Source: a bacterium
GTDB lineage: Bacteria; SM23-31; JAUVVT01
Assembly (NCBI GenBank): GCA_030616165.1
Contig: JAUWXV010000043.1
Span: forward strand, 1-20,183
Length of the DNA: 20,183 nucleotides
Direction: 5' to 3'
Shown: positions 2,800 to 17,022 of the stretch, piece after piece
How positions within the stretch are numbered: position 1 is the stretch's first letter
How the letters are laid out: every line of letters begins with the position of its first letter
Notes under the pieces: model-generated
Seen by the model: the letters and a program-made list of their open reading frames with translations, nothing else
Databases searched by the model: none
Told to the model about the DNA's origin: nothing
Made by a program: the position numbers and the translations under genes

Positions 2800-3225
2800 T
2801 TATACATTAAACAGAGTAATAAACAGATTAGTTATAAAAATATAATTATTTGAATATAATTTGTACAAACAGTATAAAACAATAGGACATATTCAAAATT
2901 ATTATATTTTCCATCCACTATTAGATATTGCACATCAATTTCTACCACTTTTCCGGATATGATTGTTCACATAAAAAGGCACGTTTAAGAAATGTAAAAG
3001 CATATTTATCACACTGGAAAAATTCAAGCCCGTATAGAACAGATAGACTGGTTCCGGTAAAGAGAATGAGCCTTAACTATATAATTAACAAATAGATTTA
3101 AATTACTTATACTCTGCACATTACAAATATAAGATATAAGTGCCCGATATGTGTTAGCGTCTATATAGCGTCTGTATAATATATTTTATTTACCCAATTT
3201 ATATGGTTAAATAAAAGGCAGATAT
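2800..3225. other. Gene-free leader region with a short unassigned reading frame
   Basis: About 425 AT-rich bases. On the plus strand an open stretch from about 2922 to 3092 encodes protein-like text containing HFSGYDCSHKKARLRNVKAY and a tryptophan, then a stop. It has no clear start codon or ribosome site. It could be the tail of a decayed gene; I do not recognise it. Nothing else is seen. Confidence 0.3.
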
Positions 3226-4587
3226 ATGTCATCAAATTACGTGTCGTTTGATGGAAATAGACTTCGCGAGGCAAGAAGGAAAAAAGGACTCACTCAGCTT
3301 GATCTTGCAGAGGAGATTGGGGCAACACAGGAAGAAATCTCAGATTATGAGCGTGAAGTAAGGGGTTGTTATCTTAAAAGAGCCTGGAAAATCATAGATA
3401 TACTTGGCGAAACCTATGACAATGTAATCCGCGGATCTATACCTGAAGATGTGGAGAAAGATTCATTTCCAAAGAAAAAGAAAGCGAGGAAAGCAAAAGA
3501 TGTTTTTGAATCCCCTAAAATAATAAAAGAACAAAGAAGATTAGCCGCTGTAATGTTCACAGATATTGTGGGCTATACTGCCATAATGTCGAAAGATGAG
3601 CGAAAGGCTTTACAGATTCTACAAAAAAATCGGGATATTTTGAAGCCGCTAATCAAGCAGCTCAACGGTGAATGGTTAAAAGAGATGGCAGATGGGACAA
3701 TCTCCATTTTTCATAGTACGTTAGATGCGGTGAACTGTGCCGTAGAAATTCAAAGTTCATTAAAAGACGAAACTGATTTTAAACTACGTATCGGTATACA
3801 TATCGGAGATGTAGTGTTTTCGGAAGGGGATATATTTGGTGATGGTGTTAATATTGCTTCTCGAATACAGCCGTTGGCAGAGCCGGGAGGGATTTGTGTC
3901 TCTTATAGGGTTTATGATGACATTCTCAACAAGCCGGAATTAGAAGCTGTTTTTGTTGGGGAGAAAAAGTTAAAAAATGTAATTCGTCCTATAAAAGTTT
4001 ATGCTATTACTTCGGCAGGACTTCCTGCCCCCTTAACAGAATTATCCACTGATAAAAAAATTGAAGTGAAACTACCAATTGCTGCCCCTGAAAAGAAAAA
4101 GCCAATCCTAAGTAGTAAATTGATTTTCAGTTGTGCAGCGGCAGTGGTATTATTTGTAATTCTTTTATATGGCTGGATTTTACCCACTTATTTTAATAAA
4201 GATACTACTAAAGGCAAGATTGATTCATTGGCGATCTTACCTTTTATAAGTTCAAGTGAGCATGATGATGTTATCTATCTCAGCGAAGGTATTCCTGAAA
4301 GCATTATTTCCAGTATGCAAAAACTGCCTGATATAAAAGTGATTTCATTCAGTTTGGTACAGCAGCGTTATAAAGATGAAATTCCCTCCCCGAGTGTTAT
4401 TGGCAGTGATTTAAATGTTAAATCAGTTGTTGTTGGTAGGATGTCACTGCGCGGTGAGGAACTCACAATCAACATAGAGATAGTGGACACGAGGGATAAC
4501 AGCGTTATATTAGCTAAACAATACTTTGAAAAACTTGCTGACCCCTGTGGGTATTCAAACGAAGATAGCCGAGGATATTACCGATGA
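3226..4587 (+). CDS. XRE-HTH / class III adenylyl cyclase / TM / TolB-like fusion protein (frameshifted C-terminus)
   Basis: 453 residues in four parts. Residues 10-70 are an XRE-type helix-turn-helix (LREARRKKGLTQLDLAEEIG). Residues 104-262 are a class III nucleotidyl cyclase domain. Residues 299-321 are a single membrane helix. Residues 333-438 are a TolB-like/FlgO-like domain (SLAILPF..., YLSEGIPESI). All key cyclase residues are present: metal-binding D113 (FTDIVGYT) and D156, the base-recognising pair K152 and D206 (Lys/Asp favours ATP over GTP), and transition-state N209 and R213 (GDGVNIASR). The predicted product is cAMP made on the cytoplasmic side. The start has AAGG (3215-3218) upstream. 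A likely extra base in the C run 4542-4545 shifts the frame. The alternative frame continues with GIQTKIAEDITDELRFQLT, the usual end of such domains, and stops at 4637-4639. No TPR follows, although TPRs are common in relatives. Confidence 0.8.
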   Translation: MSSNYVSFDGNRLREARRKKGLTQLDLAEEIGATQEEISDYEREVRGCYLKRAWKIIDILGETYDNVIRGSIPEDVEKDSFPKKKKARKAKDVFESPKIIKEQRRLAAVMFTDIVGYTAIMSKDERKALQILQKNRDILKPLIKQLNGEWLKEMADGTISIFHSTLDAVNCAVEIQSSLKDETDFKLRIGIHIGDVVFSEGDIFGDGVNIASRIQPLAEPGGICVSYRVYDDILNKPELEAVFVGEKKLKNVIRPIKVYAITSAGLPAPLTELSTDKKIEVKLPIAAPEKKKPILSSKLIFSCAAAVVLFVILLYGWILPTYFNKDTTKGKIDSLAILPFISSSEHDDVIYLSEGIPESIISSMQKLPDIKVISFSLVQQRYKDEIPSPSVIGSDLNVKSVVVGRMSLRGEELTINIEIVDTRDNSVILAKQYFEKLADPCGYSNEDSRGYYR

Positions 4588-4639
4588 ACTCAGATTTCAA
4601 TTGACTAAAAGAAGTTTAATGTCGGGTTTTAAACCTTAA
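4542..4639 (+). pseudogene. Displaced C-terminal tail of the cyclase gene after a frameshift
   Basis: Removing one C from 4542-4545 turns the terminal PCGYSNEDSRGYYR into PVGIQTKIAEDITDELRFQL followed by TKRSLMSGFKP and a TAA at 4637-4639. The pattern xxIQxxIAxxIxxxLxxxL is the normal amphipathic continuation after TolB-like domains in cyclase/TPR proteins, so this is very likely the original tail. The cause may be a real mutation or a sequencing error in a homopolymer. Confidence 0.7.
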
Positions 4640-4650
4640 AGTAATGATTT

Positions 4651-4674
4651 GGAGGTGAAAATTACTCCACCTCC
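4651..4674. terminator. Weak hairpin after the cyclase gene
   Basis: GGAGGTG (4651-4657) pairs with CACCTCC (4668-4674) around a 10-base loop, just after the corrected stop codon. There is no following T tract, so it is at best a weak or factor-dependent terminator. Confidence 0.3.
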
Positions 4675-4780
4675 AGAACTAACTCAAATACAAGTATTTT
4701 TAAGATGAACACTTTATTTTAAAGTTATTCAAAAATCACTTCCCATACACACCAACCAAACTTTTTAATTGATTATTATT

Positions 4781-4978
4781 CTACTCTTTTTTTATAATTT
4801 CAAATCCTTTATTTGTAAGCCTTATAAACCAATAGTTTACTTTTCTTTCTCGGGTTATCAAATCTGAATCTATTAGTTTCTTTAGAACATTTGAAACAGT
4901 TGTTTTTATTTTACTATTCAATATATAAATTTTCAGGTGTAAAGGAGCTGGGAGAATATTTAAAACCAGGAAAAAAAT
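4781..4978 (-). pseudogene. Remnant of a winged-helix (MarR-like) regulator
   Basis: A 65-codon open stretch with no ATG start, ending in TAG at 4781-4783. Its C-terminal part reads IKTTVSNVLKKLIDSDLITR, then ERKVNYWFIRLTNKGFEIIK. This is the recognition helix, wing and final helix pattern of MarR-type regulators (…VSNVLKKLIDSDLI, R…, LTNKG). The N-terminal dimerisation part is missing and the upstream sequence is closed by a stop. I read it as a decayed gene. The family assignment rests on pattern only. Confidence 0.45.
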
Positions 4979-5061
4979 CTATTGAAAATATGGCTATATT
5001 AGCTAAATATTTTGTACTGACACTCAAAAATCAAAACAGAATTAAGCAGCTTTTTGTTTAG
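4921..5061 (+). pseudogene. Unassigned protein-like fragment
   Basis: An open plus-strand frame that ends at TAG 5059-5061 and contains GVKELGEYLKPGKKSIENMA followed by ILAKYF. It has no start codon or ribosome site. The KSIENMA text is reminiscent of the N-terminal region of some DDE transposases, but the fragment is too short to assign. It overlaps the minus-strand winged-helix remnant by about 60 bases, so at least one of the two is not ancestral coding sequence. Confidence 0.2.
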
Positions 5062-5190
5062 TGCAAATCTGTTCAAATTTGACTGAACCTAACACCTTAA
5101 GTAACTAATGAGGATAGAAACGATTATAGTTATTTATTCAAGTTTCTATAGTTTGATGAGCCTCATAAAATTAATACTATTTATTTTAAA

Positions 5191-5215
5191 GAGGGCGAAC
5201 GCCGTTCGCCCCTAC
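5191..5215. repeat. Interspersed palindrome GGGCGAAC-GCC-GTTCGCCC
   Basis: GGCGAAC (5194-5200) and GTTCGCC (5204-5210) are perfect arms around a short loop, followed by CCTAC. The same core, including the trailing CCCCTACA, occurs at 250-276, and half copies occur at 564-577 and 915-925. It is a small multi-copy palindromic element in non-coding DNA. Confidence 0.75.
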
Positions 5216-5335
5216 AATCGTGCTGTATGAAAATGTATGATTTTTTTAGCCATATTGTCAAGAAATAAGTATTGTGTTGCTGAATTATGCCGGTGCAAGA
5301 ATTTTAATAATATCATTTAAAGTTTAAATATTATT

Positions 5336-5660
5336 CTATATTTTTTCAATTTCAGTATTTTCTTTTTTTAATTTTTCTTTTATTGATTCTATTAATTCAG
5401 TTGCTTTATCGATATTTCTATCTTTAATAAAATAGCATATACCTCTCATCAAATGAGCAGGATAATTATGTGGTTATATTTTCGGGATAATATCTAAAAG
5501 TTCATTTATTTTATTTATGTTATTCTTTTTTTCATTACAATAATATAGATTAAAATAGTAAAAAAAATCAATTGCACTTAATGGAAAAATTGTTAGTTTT
5601 CATTTAAAATATAACCGAAACTCATACTAAATTCATATTTGATTTTAATATGGGGAATAT
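5336..5660 (-). pseudogene. Decayed TPR-like protein gene
   Basis: Reading leftward, the frame ends at TAG 5336-5338 and encodes PAHLMRGICYFIKDRNIDKA followed by TELIESIKEKLKKENTEIEK. This has the A/G/Y spacing of a tetratricopeptide helix pair. An in-frame TAA at 5474-5476 interrupts it after INKINELLDIIPKI. Further upstream the protein-like text (KYEFSMSFGYILNEN) is in another frame. At least one stop and one frameshift are therefore needed, and the gene is dead. Its upstream part (5551-5660) is duplicated at 7026-7136. TPR assignment is by pattern only. Confidence 0.5.
5551..5660. repeat. 110-bp direct repeat, copy 1
   Basis: From TAAAATAGTA to TGGGGAATAT this block matches 7026-7136. The differences are two substitutions and one extra A in a homopolymer. 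The two copies lie in the same orientation about 1.36 kb apart and enclose the coiled-coil gene at 5897 and several gene remnants. The near identity implies a recent duplication. Confidence 0.9.
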
Positions 5661-5799
5661 CGATTTATTAGAAGTTAATTTCTCATTGGAAGAAATATGT
5701 GGAAGTTTATCCTCAGATTCCAGAAAAAAGGTTATTGGTTATAAAAATATAGAAGAACTCAAAATGTCTGAAAAAGCAATCGAGTTATATAAAAGATGA
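5650..5799 (+). CDS. Small hypothetical ORF, possibly a gene fragment
   Basis: 49 codons starting MGNIDLLEVN and ending in EKAIELYKR. The first bases lie inside the 110-bp repeat, and the equivalent start in the other copy (7126) runs into a stop after eight residues. There is no good ribosome binding site. The amphipathic C-terminal end suggests a fragment of a helical protein. Function unknown; it may not be expressed. Confidence 0.25.
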   Translation: MGNIDLLEVNFSLEEICGSLSSDSRKKVIGYKNIEELKMSEKAIELYKR

Positions 5800-5896
5800 A
5801 TAAAAAATGATAATGAATTCAAATTGAAGAAATAAACAGAGATAATGCTTAAAAATATTACAATAAAGATGAGATGAAAAATAAGGAGGAAAGGAC

Positions 5897-6445: not shown

Positions 6446-7025
6446 TAAGTTCCCTCTTGTGTCCCGGCTTCTGGTTGTGTTAAAGTTTTTGCCAAGTCAT
6501 CTTATGGATGACGAGAAGGTTCCGCCATAGTCCGCAATAGCGGATCCTCCTAATGCGGATTTAAGCCTGAAAAAAAGAAGGTAACATTTTAAAAAAAAAA
6601 TAAGTTTACCTGAGGGATTTTTTATCGGATTGAGCGATTGATTGGGCTGTAACTTAACATTTACTATTTTGCTCTTAATGATCCACGAGTCAAAAACGCA
6701 CTATCTTCCATATCACGTAATGCATCATTTGCTGCAGGACGTAATTCTTATAAATAAGCAGTTGTTGCTTTTTGTTGATCAACGTCAATTTCTAATTTTT
6801 GAAGAACTTGAGGAAAATATCCGCTTGTCGGATCATATAAAAACTTAAAAAGGTCATCTAATTTAAGTAATAAGATATTCACTGAGATTTTATTTCGAAT
6901 CAATCGATTGCGTTGCTAATCAAAGTAATGCTACACTTTCTCATAATAAACGTTGGACAGGTGTCTCCAGTCATCCTATTTTAAGGGAAAAACATCTTAA
7001 TCAGAAAGAAATAGATAATATTATT
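6446..7025. other. Non-coding stretch with gene remnants
   Basis: No intact gene. It contains an inverted repeat around 6529-6561 (TCCGCAATAGCGGATCC followed by TAATGCGGA), a minus-strand remnant (listed separately), and a plus-strand open stretch ending at TAA 7026-7028 that reads FESIDCVANQSNATLSHNKR followed by WTGVSSHPILREKHLNQKEI. The latter has no start or ribosome site and I cannot assign it. Confidence 0.35.
6664..6914 (-). pseudogene. Unassigned gene remnant with an internal stop
   Basis: The minus strand reads KLDDLFKFLYDPTSGYFPQV, then LQKLEIDVDQQKATTAYL, an in-frame TAA, and ELRPAANDALRDMEDSAFLT, stopping at TAG 6664-6666. Composition and continuity across the stop look like real protein. 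No start or ribosome site is seen upstream. Further left on the same strand, in another frame, is SALGGSAIADYGGTFSSS (about 6496-6560), which may belong to the same decayed gene. I do not recognise the family. Confidence 0.35.
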
Positions 7026-7136
7026 TAAAATAGTAAAAAAAAATCAGTTGCACTTAATGGAAAAATTGTTAGTTTTCATTTAAAATATAACCGAAACTCA
7101 TACCAAATTCATATTTGATTTTAATATGGGGAATAT
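7026..7136. repeat. 110-bp direct repeat, copy 2
   Basis: This is the counterpart of 5551-5660 in the same orientation, with one extra A in the run at about 7036-7044. The flanks differ on both sides (GATTATT-type sequence to the left, AGGAATAATAG to the right), so the duplicated unit is well bounded. No target-site duplication is evident. Confidence 0.9.
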
Positions 7137-7247
7137 AGGAATAATAGTTAATTAAGTTACATACCACTAATAATGTTTATATATTCTTTGTTTAATCAGT
7201 GTAATCCATGAAATCTTTTGCAATTAATATTTTATTATAGGAAATAT

Positions 7248-9086
7248 ATGCAAGCATATTACCATACATTTTACATTCCCGTTATGGGTACTGGTCATAC
7301 AGTTGACACACCTATTCGTGTCGCACATTTAGGTATTAATTCCGTTGTTTCACTTGTAGATGATATTCTGCTTGATAGAATTCGCAAATATTACAGTGAA
7401 AAATTTGGATTACCATATTTCAAGATTTTACCGGACGAGGAAGACGGAAGAGCTAAGAGGATTACAGCTTATCTTGATATGGTCAGGGAAATCGTTCATA
7501 TAAAAATGGAAGCTATCAAGAAACAGCCTTTTTTCACTTCCAGCGACAAAGTAAAATACTTTGAATTACTGCCTGATGAAAGTATATTGAAAAAATTGTA
7601 TAACAAGTTTTTCAAAATGAAAGAAGGGGATGAAAAAAGAGCACTGGAAGAAGAGCTGACGCATAAAATGCGACCCGGTTCTATAGATGTTAATATTATG
7701 GTTAAACTGGACAAAGTCAATTTTAACAACGGTAGTCCCTTAAGTGATAAATTCAGCGATGCCAAAGCTGCACTCAGAGGCTACGTTAACAGCAGTCTTA
7801 AGTCAGGCATAGTGTTTTCGGCTGGAATTAACCAAAGCTTGTTTAATTATATGACGCAGTTTAGTGATTTTTATAGAAACAAAGTTGGTGAAATTAAAAA
7901 GAGTATAATTTTGAAGGTTAGTGATTTCCGCTCTGCACTCATTCAGGGCAAATTAATGGCAAAGAAAGGATTAGAGGTTGCCGAATTTAGAATTGAATCA
8001 GGGCTCCACTGCGGCGGTCATGCCTTTCCTTCCAACGGATTTGTACTTCCATATATTCTTCAGGAATTCAAAGAAAAACGTGAACAGTTAGAAAAGATGT
8101 TTAAACCGCTAATAAAGAAATATTACAAAAAAATGGATTGGAAATATACGGAAACATCGATTAAGAATCGTCCGCTTATCACTGTGCAGGGGGGGATTGG
8201 TACTAATGGAGAAGTGCACAGGCTCCGTAAAGATTTTAATATAGACCTTACGGGCTGGGCAAGTCCTTTTCTGCTTGTTCCCGAAGCGACCTGCGTGGAT
8301 GCATCAACACGGGAAATTTTAAGAAAGGCAGGTAAAGAGGAACTTTACATAAGTGATGTTTCTCCGCTTGAGATTCCATTCAATAATGTGCGATGTTCAG
8401 GCTCGGAAATGTGGACACGCGAAAGAATAAAAAAAGGTAACCCGGGTTCTCCTTGTCCAAAAGGGCTTTTAATATCAAACACTGAATATACTGAAAAGCC
8501 AATATGTCTTGCATCAAGGCAGTATCAAAAGAAGAAATTAGAGGAGATAAGTAAACTGGAAATTTCAAACGATAAAAAAGAAAAATTATATGCACAGATT
8601 TTGGAAAAAACTTGCATCTGTGACCATTTGGGTAATGGAGCTCTTATTTCCCTTGGAATTGCGGAGGAGAATAACTCCCCCCAATCTATTTGCCCCGGTC
8701 CCAATCTCGCATGGTTTGATAGATTATACTCTTTAAAGGAAATGATTGACCATATTTACGGTAGGGGGGAATCTTTAGTTTTATCTGAACGTCCACATAT
8801 GTTTGCTAAAGAAATTGAGATGTATGTAGATTATTTTGAAAAACAAGTAACTCAGAGCAGTTATTCACTAAAAGAAATTAAAAATTTGAAAGAATCTAAG
8901 AAAAACCTTGAAGATGGTATGGACTTTTGCCTAAATATTGCAGAGAGACAGCCGTATGATGGGGAAAATCTGGCATCTATTCCTCCTTGCATAGAACAGC
9001 AAAGGTTGCGCTTAAAATCTATCTATGACGTGTTTGAAATGAATATCGAAAAAAAATGCTATATGAAAATAAATCATAGAACATAA
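7248..9086 (+). CDS. Large conserved cysteine-rich protein of unknown function
   Basis: 612 residues from the ATG at 7248 (an in-frame ATG also exists at 7218). I prefer 7248 because AGGA (7237-7240) lies seven bases upstream and because the MQAYYHTFYIPVMGTGHTVD start looks like the natural N-terminus. The protein is soluble, with no signal peptide or membrane helix. It has blocks that look strongly conserved: IPVMGTG near the start, SGLHCGGHAF (C255), ITVQGGIGTNGE, ASPFLLVPEATCVD (C349), PGSPCPKG (C403), CLASRQYQ (C420), TCIC (C456, C458) and SICPGPNLAWF (C482). I recall similar proteins annotated as hypothetical in Bacteroidota. The glycine-rich GGIGT block and the cysteines suggest a TIM-barrel or nucleotide/metal-binding enzyme, but this is inference. 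It stands alone, with a hairpin just downstream. Confidence 0.65.
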   Translation: MQAYYHTFYIPVMGTGHTVDTPIRVAHLGINSVVSLVDDILLDRIRKYYSEKFGLPYFKILPDEEDGRAKRITAYLDMVREIVHIKMEAIKKQPFFTSSDKVKYFELLPDESILKKLYNKFFKMKEGDEKRALEEELTHKMRPGSIDVNIMVKLDKVNFNNGSPLSDKFSDAKAALRGYVNSSLKSGIVFSAGINQSLFNYMTQFSDFYRNKVGEIKKSIILKVSDFRSALIQGKLMAKKGLEVAEFRIESGLHCGGHAFPSNGFVLPYILQEFKEKREQLEKMFKPLIKKYYKKMDWKYTETSIKNRPLITVQGGIGTNGEVHRLRKDFNIDLTGWASPFLLVPEATCVDASTREILRKAGKEELYISDVSPLEIPFNNVRCSGSEMWTRERIKKGNPGSPCPKGLLISNTEYTEKPICLASRQYQKKKLEEISKLEISNDKKEKLYAQILEKTCICDHLGNGALISLGIAEENNSPQSICPGPNLAWFDRLYSLKEMIDHIYGRGESLVLSERPHMFAKEIEMYVDYFEKQVTQSSYSLKEIKNLKESKKNLEDGMDFCLNIAERQPYDGENLASIPPCIEQQRLRLKSIYDVFEMNIEKKCYMKINHRT

Positions 9087-13785: not shown

Positions 13786-13910
13786 GTTTATGAAATAATG
13801 TTAAATTCTATATTTTTAATTTTCTCTTATCTATAAATTTTATATAAAATTTCTGTAAGATAGACATTCCTGCTCTGTCCCTCGTTATTCTGGTCAGACC
13901 CCAAGGCAAG

Positions 13911-14160
13911 CAAGAATGTCTGACCTACTATATTAATCATTATCAAATTTAAATATGTGAGTTTGCCTTTTTAAGATTATTTATTTCTATTAATTAGGGT
14001 AAGGCGTTCAAATGTTGATTGCTAATATCAAGGTCAGACAAGAATGTCTGACCTACTATATTAATCATTATCAAATTTAAATATGTGAGTTTGCCTTTTT
14101 AAGATTATTTATTTCTATTAATTAGGGTAAGGCGTTCAAATGTTGATTGCTAATATCAAG
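13911..14160. repeat. Perfect 122-bp tandem duplication (128-bp period)
   Basis: 13911-14032 and 14039-14160 appear identical over 122 bases, joined by GTCAGA. At the junction, AGGTCAGACA (14031-14040) and TGTCTGACCT (14045-14054) form a perfect 10-bp hairpin. The left edge has a split version, GGTCAGAC (13892-13899) and GTCTGACC (13918-13925). No reading frame is conserved. The unit is intergenic, between the pdxT terminator and the peptidase region. Confidence 0.95.
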
Positions 14161-14238: not shown

Positions 14239-14245
14239 TTAAAAA

Positions 14246-14476
14246 CTTCTACTGGTTCACGGGGATATACAATAATATATATCCGCGAAATACCATCAGA
14301 TTGGTTAATGCTTTTATCAAAGCGAATAAACAATTCGATTTCATAATTATGTCGTGAAGAGACACAGTTTTGGCAAATATAATCGCCATTATGTTCGTAT
14401 GCTTTGAGACTATTTATCAGAATATCTCCTCAGTAATTACCGCACCAACTTAGATATTTTCGAAGACGAAAAATAG
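14246..14476 (+). pseudogene. 3' remnant of a second S9 peptidase gene
   Basis: This segment aligns along its length with the last ~230 bases of the intact peptidase gene (about 16685-16916). Shared blocks include GAAATACCATCAGATT, TTTTGGCAAATATAATCGC, TACCGCACCAAC and TTCGAAGACGAAAAATAG. Frameshifts and stops (TAA, TGA) interrupt it, and the HGD-x-D motif is damaged just after the GGGGATATA equivalent. The stop codon position (14474-14476) is conserved. It is a dead paralogue in the same orientation as the intact gene, left after loss of its 5' part. Confidence 0.92.
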
Positions 14477-14543
14477 CCAATTGGGGATTAATCATATTAC
14501 CGGATAATCCTGATTTTTAAACAATAAATAGGAGGAAGTAACA

Positions 14544-16916
14544 ATGAGAATAAAAACTGTTAGCAATCGTATCACTGCACGATTGTTTATTACTATTGTG
14601 CTTCTGCTATTTTCAACCAGCCTTCTTTTTGCACAGAAGGACAAAATTCAAAAAGCAAACTTTGAACTGGCAAACAAATTCACCACAAAAAAAATCGAGA
14701 AAATGCTCTACGATACCTCTGTCAGGCCGAAATGGCTGGAAAACAGCGAGATGTTCTGGTATCGTTTTAAAAACAGTTCTGGTACACATTATTATCTTGT
14801 TGACCCTCTGGAAAAGACAAAGAAACCGATATTTGATAATGATCAACTGGCGGCAGCTTTATCAAAAGAGTTAAAAAAGCCGTTTGATCCGAATCATATT
14901 ACAATAGACTCTCTCAAGTTTGTAAAAGAAATGGAAGCGGTTGAAATAATAGTAGATAGTTTACGCTACGAGTATAATTTATTAACATCCACATTAACAT
15001 TCATCGACAGCGTTAAAAAGAAACCGAAAAAGGAAGAATGGGTAAATTTCTCTCCTGACAGTGCCACGATTGTTTTCGCTAAAAACCATAATCTTTATAT
15101 TATGGCAACAGATGATCCCGACAGCGTAGAACATCAATTAACAACTGACGGAGAAAGGTATTACAGTTATGCTGCTGATGATGGTGATACGACCAAAGAC
15201 AAGCGCGTAAGAGCAAGAGCACAATGGTCTAAAGACTCTAAAAAGTTTCATCTTATGAGATGGGACAAACGGAAAGTAGGAGATTTATGGGTAATTGACG
15301 TGCTGAACAATCCGCGTCCCAAACTTGAGACCTATAAATATGCCATGCCAGGTGAAGAATATGTTCCACAGTATGAACTATTCGTTTTTGACCGTGAAAA
15401 AAAGGGAAATGTTAAGGTAAAGGCTGATATGTGGAAAGACCAGGGTTTATTTGTGGTCCGGTGGGGAGAGACATCGGAAACGCTCTATTTTGTTCGGAGG
15501 GACAGAACAATGCACAAGGTAGATGTGTGCACAGCAGATGCAGAAACAGGGGATATTGGTGTCCTTCTTGAGGAAAGAATGGACACATACATTGAGGGTG
15601 GTCCAATTTATCTTATCAATGATGACAGTGAGATTATCCATTGGTCTGAACGAGATGGGTGGGGACATTATTATCTTTATGACGGTAAAGGGAACCTGAA
15701 AAACCAGATTACCACTGGAAATTTTGTATGTTCGAGGAGGGGAATTACAAAAATAGATACATCAAAACGGGTATTATATTTCTCTGCGAGTGGCCGCGAA
15801 AAAGATGTTGACCCTTATTATTCGCATTATTATCGTGTCGGTTTTGATGGAGAGGGACTTAAACTAATCACTCCAGAAAACGCTGACCATTCAATTTCTA
15901 TGTCCAAGTCAAATAAATATTTTATCGATAACTTTTCCCGTATTGACCAGGTTTCTAAAGCGGTATTGCGTGATTATATAGGAAACAAAATTATGGACCT
16001 GGAAACCATCGATATTTCCAGACTTGAAGAGGCTGGCTGGAAAATGCCGGAGACTTTTAAAGTTAAAGCGGCAGATGGCATTACCGACCTTTATGGCGTC
16101 ATGTGGAAACCTTCTGATTTTGACCCTGAAAAGAAATATCCGATTATTGCCCACGTGTACCCGGGTCCCCAGCAAGAATCGGTTCCTAAAGGATTTTCTC
16201 CGACAAACAGAAATATTGGACTTGCCCAGATTGGTTTTGTTGTCATTGCAGTAGGGAACAGAGGTGGAAGCCCGCAGAGGTCAAAATGGTATCATAATTA
16301 CGGCTACGGTAATCTGCGAGACTATGGACTTGCTGACAAAAAGTATGCAATTGAGCAGCTTTCCGACAGATATTCATTTATTGATATTGACCGTGTGGGG
16401 ATTTACGGGCATTCCGGAGGCGGATTTATGTCAACAGCCGCAATGCTGGTATATCCGGATTTTTTCAATGTTGCCGTCTCCTCTTCCGGTAATCATGATA
16501 ACAACATATATAACCAGGGGTGGAGTGAAAAACACCATGGGGTAAAAGAGGTAAAAGTAAAGAAGAAAAAGGATAAAGAAGAATCGACTGCCGAAAAAGA
16601 TACAAGTGAGGTTGAATATGAAACCAAATTTGAAATCAAAGTTCCAACCAATATTGAACTTGCCAAAAATTTGAAAGGGCACTTACTGCTGGTTCATGGA
16701 GATATAGACAATAATGTTCATCCGGGAAATACCATCAGATTAGTCGACGCTCTTATTAAGGAGAATAAACGTTTTGATTTCATGATTATGGCGGGACAGA
16801 AGCACGGTTTTGGCAAATATAATCGCTATTTCGTCCGGGCTCTGTGGAATTATTTTGCAGAACATCTACTCGGTGATTACCGCACCAACGTGGATATGTT
16901 CGAAGACGAAAAATAG
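14544..16916 (+). CDS. Secreted dipeptidyl peptidase IV-like S9 serine peptidase
   Basis: 790 residues. An N-terminal signal peptide (about 1-30, ending SLLFAQ) indicates export. Residues 40-500 are a DPP IV-type beta-propeller. Residues 505-785 are an alpha/beta-hydrolase domain with a full triad: S624 (YGHSGGG), D722 (HGDIDNN) and H754 (GQKHGFG). In this family the enzymes cut dipeptides from the N-terminus of peptides, often after proline. A very charged insertion (about 666-700, KKKKDKEES and following) separates the nucleophile region from the Asp; similar insertions occur in Bacteroidota relatives. The ribosome site GGAGG (14531-14535) is strong. Upstream lie a dead 3' copy of the same gene and promoter-like block A; downstream is a symporter with a matching promoter block. 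Exact substrate specificity is not shown by the sequence. Confidence 0.93.
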   Translation: MRIKTVSNRITARLFITIVLLLFSTSLLFAQKDKIQKANFELANKFTTKKIEKMLYDTSVRPKWLENSEMFWYRFKNSSGTHYYLVDPLEKTKKPIFDNDQLAAALSKELKKPFDPNHITIDSLKFVKEMEAVEIIVDSLRYEYNLLTSTLTFIDSVKKKPKKEEWVNFSPDSATIVFAKNHNLYIMATDDPDSVEHQLTTDGERYYSYAADDGDTTKDKRVRARAQWSKDSKKFHLMRWDKRKVGDLWVIDVLNNPRPKLETYKYAMPGEEYVPQYELFVFDREKKGNVKVKADMWKDQGLFVVRWGETSETLYFVRRDRTMHKVDVCTADAETGDIGVLLEERMDTYIEGGPIYLINDDSEIIHWSERDGWGHYYLYDGKGNLKNQITTGNFVCSRRGITKIDTSKRVLYFSASGREKDVDPYYSHYYRVGFDGEGLKLITPENADHSISMSKSNKYFIDNFSRIDQVSKAVLRDYIGNKIMDLETIDISRLEEAGWKMPETFKVKAADGITDLYGVMWKPSDFDPEKKYPIIAHVYPGPQQESVPKGFSPTNRNIGLAQIGFVVIAVGNRGGSPQRSKWYHNYGYGNLRDYGLADKKYAIEQLSDRYSFIDIDRVGIYGHSGGGFMSTAAMLVYPDFFNVAVSSSGNHDNNIYNQGWSEKHHGVKEVKVKKKKDKEESTAEKDTSEVEYETKFEIKVPTNIELAKNLKGHLLLVHGDIDNNVHPGNTIRLVDALIKENKRFDFMIMAGQKHGFGKYNRYFVRALWNYFAEHLLGDYRTNVDMFEDEK

Positions 16917-17022
16917 CCCAATAGACTTAGAGATGATTTGAAAAAATTGGGTAAAGAAGAATAGTAGATATACACTGCAATGCGTCTCTACATATAATAA
17001 TAAAATTTGTATAATCTTCTAT

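Follow-up and report, generated by a model that had tools for sequence, protein, structure and literature searches.

Organisation of the ORF and its surroundings

The window (the whole 20,183-nucleotide stretch analysed) includes a single ORF for a protein of 453 amino acids (aa), in which an XRE-type helix-turn-helix (HTH) domain and a charged linker precede a class III nucleotide cyclase catalytic domain (CHD), a membrane helix (TM) and a TolB-like domain. As assembled, the fusion is real, in frame and present in one copy; the cyclase that carries it is ordinary apart from this, and its tail is broken. The features are given in Table 1.

Table 1. Features of the HTH-cyclase ORF and of the sequence that follows it.
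Feature	Residues	Coordinates	Strand	Basis
ORF, ATG start, main-frame stop at 4585-4587	453 aa	3226..4587	+	ORF reading
XRE/HTH_3 domain	13-63	3262..3414	+	PF01381 E 9.1e-8; genome scan; AlphaFold2 pLDDT 88.9; PDB fold matches
Lys/Glu-rich low-confidence linker; in-frame ATG/GTG/TTG absent at the start-Met position of relatives	64-102	3415..3531	+	sequence; model
Class III nucleotide cyclase catalytic domain; D113, K152, D156, D206, N209, R213; Ala155 for Gly	106-261	3541..4008	+	Pfam; alignment; model; fold search
Predicted single membrane helix	about 297-323	4114..4194	+	hydropathy; model helix 297-323
TolB-like/FlgO-like domain	about 334-436	4225..4533	+	Pfam; similarity to the G002:C217 protein; model
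CCCC run, frame break relative to relatives		4542..4545	+	frame comparison with relatives
GIQTKIAEDITDELRFQLT in another frame, followed by KRSLMSGFKP and a stop; the relatives have TPRs from here on		4544..4639	+	frame translation; comparison with relatives

A chance origin of the ORF and its domains is excluded by the strong E-values of the domain matches and by a simulation with 5000 random sequences matching the local intergenic composition, none of which stayed open over the first 97 codons. The GC content by codon position is coding-like through the HTH, linker, CHD and TolB-like segments.

The initial annotation had extended the gene to 4639. The ORF stops at 4587, and 4639 is reached only by a change of frame in the CCCC run, since the stretch that spans about 4544-4639 (GIQTKIAEDITDELRFQLTKRSLMSGFKP) lies in a different frame from the main ORF. 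Its first part, read in the frame that begins in the CCCC run, matches the helix that follows the TolB-like domain in relatives. Similarity ends after the LT of this out-of-frame stretch; past the point of the frame break, the relatives carry several hundred TPR residues. No TPR remnant was found downstream by tblastn with the TPRs of the relatives, and 4640-5890 showed no coding pattern in the one frame tested. Together with the end of similarity after LT, this indicates that the TPR tail was lost from the ORF. The C-terminus is most likely truncated, with decay possibly under way there. As conservation persists immediately beyond the break, the break would be either recent or a sequencing error.

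Several further repeats occur in the window. Two direct copies of about 121 bases (5540-5660 and 7015-7136; 95% identical) lie in otherwise noncoding DNA, and a unit of about 130 bases is duplicated in tandem at 13902-14160, with 97.7% identity. Short tandem units, offset by about 26 and 52 bases, are found at 2413-2567 within a minus-strand ORF (2369-2782) that had no Pfam match; nor did a 622-aa ORF at 7218-9086 at E 0.01. Upstream of an S9/DPPIV peptidase ORF, the segment at 14245-14481 shares 79.5% identity with the ORF's own 3' end (16681-16922), which suggests a remnant of an upstream S9/DPPIV duplicate.

Cyclase, membrane and TolB-like segments

The CHD was matched to Guanylate_cyc with an E-value of 7.6e-13, over the Pfam cut-off. 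Its AlphaFold2 model is very confident (pLDDT >90 over most of the domain), and the top Foldseek matches are 3mr7, Ma1120 and Rv1900c; as modelled, the CHD has the cyclase fold and matches solved adenylyl cyclases. The initial annotation described the cyclase as complete, with six catalytic residues retained. All six are seen in the alignment, being nearly invariant among the 45 aligned sequences and conserved in A1 and A3, and they fill the roles expected of a class III cyclase, namely two metal-binding Asp residues (D113, D156), the substrate Lys/Asp pair (K152, D206) and the transition-state Asn/Arg pair (N209, R213). Lys and Asp at the two substrate positions of class III cyclases are associated with ATP specificity, which K152 and D206 would fit. 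However, "complete" is too strong a word, given that residue 155 (3688-3690), in the GDG turn adjoining the second metal-binding residue D156, is Ala here and Gly in the other 44 of the 45 sequences; the residue list of the initial annotation does not include this substitution. A Pycsar cyclase (PycC) was also considered and rejected; the model match is at the level of the CHD only (E 2.4e-7), and the next two downstream ORFs had no Pycsar effector match.

The best hydrophobic segment by hydropathy, residues 300-318, falls in the model helix. Beyond it, a FlgO/TolB-like Pfam match at residues 392-434 has an E-value of 2.6e-4, just under the cut-off, a stretch including this domain shows 43% similarity to the G002:C217 protein, and the model forms a mixed alpha/beta domain at 334-436. 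Thus, the order HTH-cyclase-TM-TolB given by the initial annotation is borne out. The HTH and CHD are both N-terminal to the single helix, and lysines lie on the N-terminal side of that helix; hence the HTH and CHD are predicted to be inside, as first proposed, and the TolB-like domain outside.

The Ala155 substitution, the frame break and the missing TPR tail could mean that the gene is dying, a remnant broken not long ago that yields no protein or an inactive one, and the DNA from 4640 to about 5890, which looks noncoding, points the same way. So does the related genome G002, a class relative, which at L080:1303-1389 (contig G002:C185) carries a cut cyclase start, MKEQRKLAAIMFTDIVGYTALMQ; its open frame is limited to about 38 codons and is followed directly by an unrelated gene. 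This explanation is rather improbable, as the main frame is intact through the HTH, CHD, TM and TolB-like domain, the six catalytic residues are kept, and conservation continues past the break.

HTH domain and distribution of the fusion

The HTH_3 (PF01381) match is over the curated Pfam cut-off. Modelled by AlphaFold2 with 23 viral XRE domains, residues 1-80 form a five-helix XRE fold (helices at 10-19, 24-31, 35-42, 50-60 and 64-67); the HTH and linker are weaker in the full-length model, whose alignment of 45 sequences holds no relative having them. Matches of the HTH model in the PDB include HipB, C.BclI, SinR, C.AhdI and DdrO, and DNA-binding repressors rank among the top fold matches. 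The N-terminus is therefore predicted to fold as the HTH that the initial annotation had recognised. No close source of it was found among the XRE domains of the same genome.

In the linker, the start Met of the relatives aligns with Ile100-Lys101, and no in-frame start codon was found near that site in the ORF. Thus, ribosomes must reach the cyclase part by starting at the HTH.

The initial annotation saw in this protein one that both binds DNA at the membrane and makes cAMP. In such a membrane one-component regulator, the cyclase dimer would pair two HTHs on a palindrome close to the membrane and would also produce cAMP, giving two outputs from one protein. The XRE fold and the repressors among its fold matches are consistent with this, and the DNA ahead of the start codon has short inverted repeats, among them 3184-3196/3204-3216 and a palindrome at 3073-3088, that might provide a candidate operator. 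However, the repeats are AT-rich, and with no second copy of the fusion there is no conserved target or operator. In addition, the recognition helix ATQEEISDYERE (EEISDYE; residues 33-41) carries a net charge of -3, below the -1 to +2 of the 20 other XRE domains with which it was compared. This acidic helix leans against ordinary DNA binding, although charge alone is not decisive, and the regulator is considered unlikely.

The closest cyclases are those of G149 (69% identical), of Neomarinimicrobiota (loci L081-L084; 64-69%) and a paralog in the same genome, G000:C280 (59%). All begin directly at the CHD, and in relatives TolB/TPR segments come after it. The paralog (L025:4061-5182) had no TolB/TPR match in the 374 residues before its contig ends.

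Among 176 distinct CHD cores collected as the best-scoring cyclases, an HTH was present in one, that of the window ORF. Two HTH profiles were used, one from XRE domains selected for their resemblance to the window HTH and one from viral repressors, and very different HTH types would escape both. The 80 genome loci obtained by an alignment scan, and 8 viral loci, have no HTH before the CHD. No match spanning both domains was obtained with residues 1-269 in 386 genomes or in 146 genomes around G149, nor with the HTH alone in 290 genomes, and a single-sequence scan of genome contigs gave no match. The whole-genome matches starting before residue 70 that were inspected had other sensor domains or coiled coils in place of an HTH. 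The best of the plasmid cyclases among the matches listed are similar only from residue 93 on, and phage contributed one weak record. The exact architecture is a singleton in the material searched.

A single copy in a genome of 343 contigs might also reflect misassembly of an XRE gene start onto a cyclase gene. The contig G002:C217 of a class relative is itself chimeric-looking at its start (L027:3-300), where a single frame leads from unrelated residues into the TolB-like domain. Nevertheless, the join is interior to a 20 kb contig and in frame, with no stop and with coding-like composition through the linker, and the start Met of the cyclase has been replaced by Ile, not merely preceded by foreign DNA. 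An assembly chimera is therefore highly improbable.

Comparison with known systems and proposed role

The body of the protein resembles CHD-TM-TolB-TPR class III cyclases (e.g. G149:C234, loci among L081-L160, many of them from Neomarinimicrobiota and Bacteroidota, and Rhizobium plasmid cyclases), in which a TolB-like domain follows the CHD, many having a membrane helix that separates the two; identity over the CHD reaches 69%. Unlike these cyclases, which begin at the CHD and carry TPRs, the window protein has the CHD, TM and TolB-like domain in the same order with an XRE domain added at the N-terminus and no C-terminal TPR repeats.

The mycobacterial CHD+LuxR proteins carry their HTH at the C-terminus, behind an ATPase region, and are not known to have a membrane helix or a TolB domain. 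These proteins (Rv0386 type), a named subfamily in Actinobacteria (PMC3466318), likewise combine a cyclase and an HTH, but of the LuxR type and not XRE. Closer in the HTH are the multi-domain cyclases used in a 2016 paper that cites Pfam architectures, where PF01381 is listed among the HTH partners (PMC4886424); these are described as mainly two-domain proteins, and membrane or TolB parts are unmentioned. Given these two precedents, the HTH-cyclase fusion as a kind is not new, whereas the exact XRE-CHD-TM-TolB order, which the initial annotation had singled out, was found in no other protein of the material searched. Nothing direct on XRE-cyclases or TolB-like cyclases was found in the literature searched, the coverage of which is incomplete.

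A winged HTH (Trans_reg_C) is absent from the N-terminus of the window protein, where Pfam finds HTH_3/XRE instead. CadC/ToxR-like transmembrane transcription regulators have a winged HTH and are not known to carry an enzyme domain. They are alike in combining a cytoplasmic HTH, one membrane helix and an outer sensor domain; the family is named in PMC5430869. RodZ also has a cytoplasmic HTH, one membrane helix and a periplasmic domain, without a cyclase; its HTH binds MreB, and hence a membrane-anchored HTH can bind protein instead of DNA (PMC4047632). HTH_25 was not among the Pfam matches of the window protein.

The fusion is most likely specific to this lineage, and the cyclase that received it routine. 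We tentatively favour a singleton fusion, in an uncultured bacterial lineage, in which the HTH serves as an accessory cytoplasmic module of the cyclase. An XRE-type HTH would have been fused in frame, with the charged linker between, to the beginning of a CHD-TM-TolB-TPR cyclase of the common type, and the TPR tail has been lost. The product is expected to be an inner-membrane protein whose HTH and cyclase face the cytoplasm, the TolB-like domain lying outside. Class III cyclases work as dimers whose active sites form at the interface. A homodimer is likewise presumed here, and cAMP would be made under the control of the outer part. The HTH could act as a DNA-binding pair or could hold a partner protein, in the way that MreB is bound by RodZ; a docking, pairing or autoregulatory module appears more likely than a main output. 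Set against this accessory role are the signs of a dying gene considered above and the possibility that an HTH keeping its predicted fold may bind DNA. Since no second genome has the fusion, neither it nor its function gains support from conservation.

The most far-reaching form of the proposal, a live membrane protein coupling DNA binding by an XRE pair with cAMP synthesis, would hold a promoter and a cAMP source at the membrane under outer TolB-like control, and is very unlikely. If expressed and active, the protein would give a modest example from nature of a second-messenger enzyme combined with an HTH in the same membrane protein, and it could be used to ask directly if HTHs of this type contact DNA or serve to dock proteins. 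Present as one truncated copy, it chiefly shows how freely cyclase domains are shuffled.
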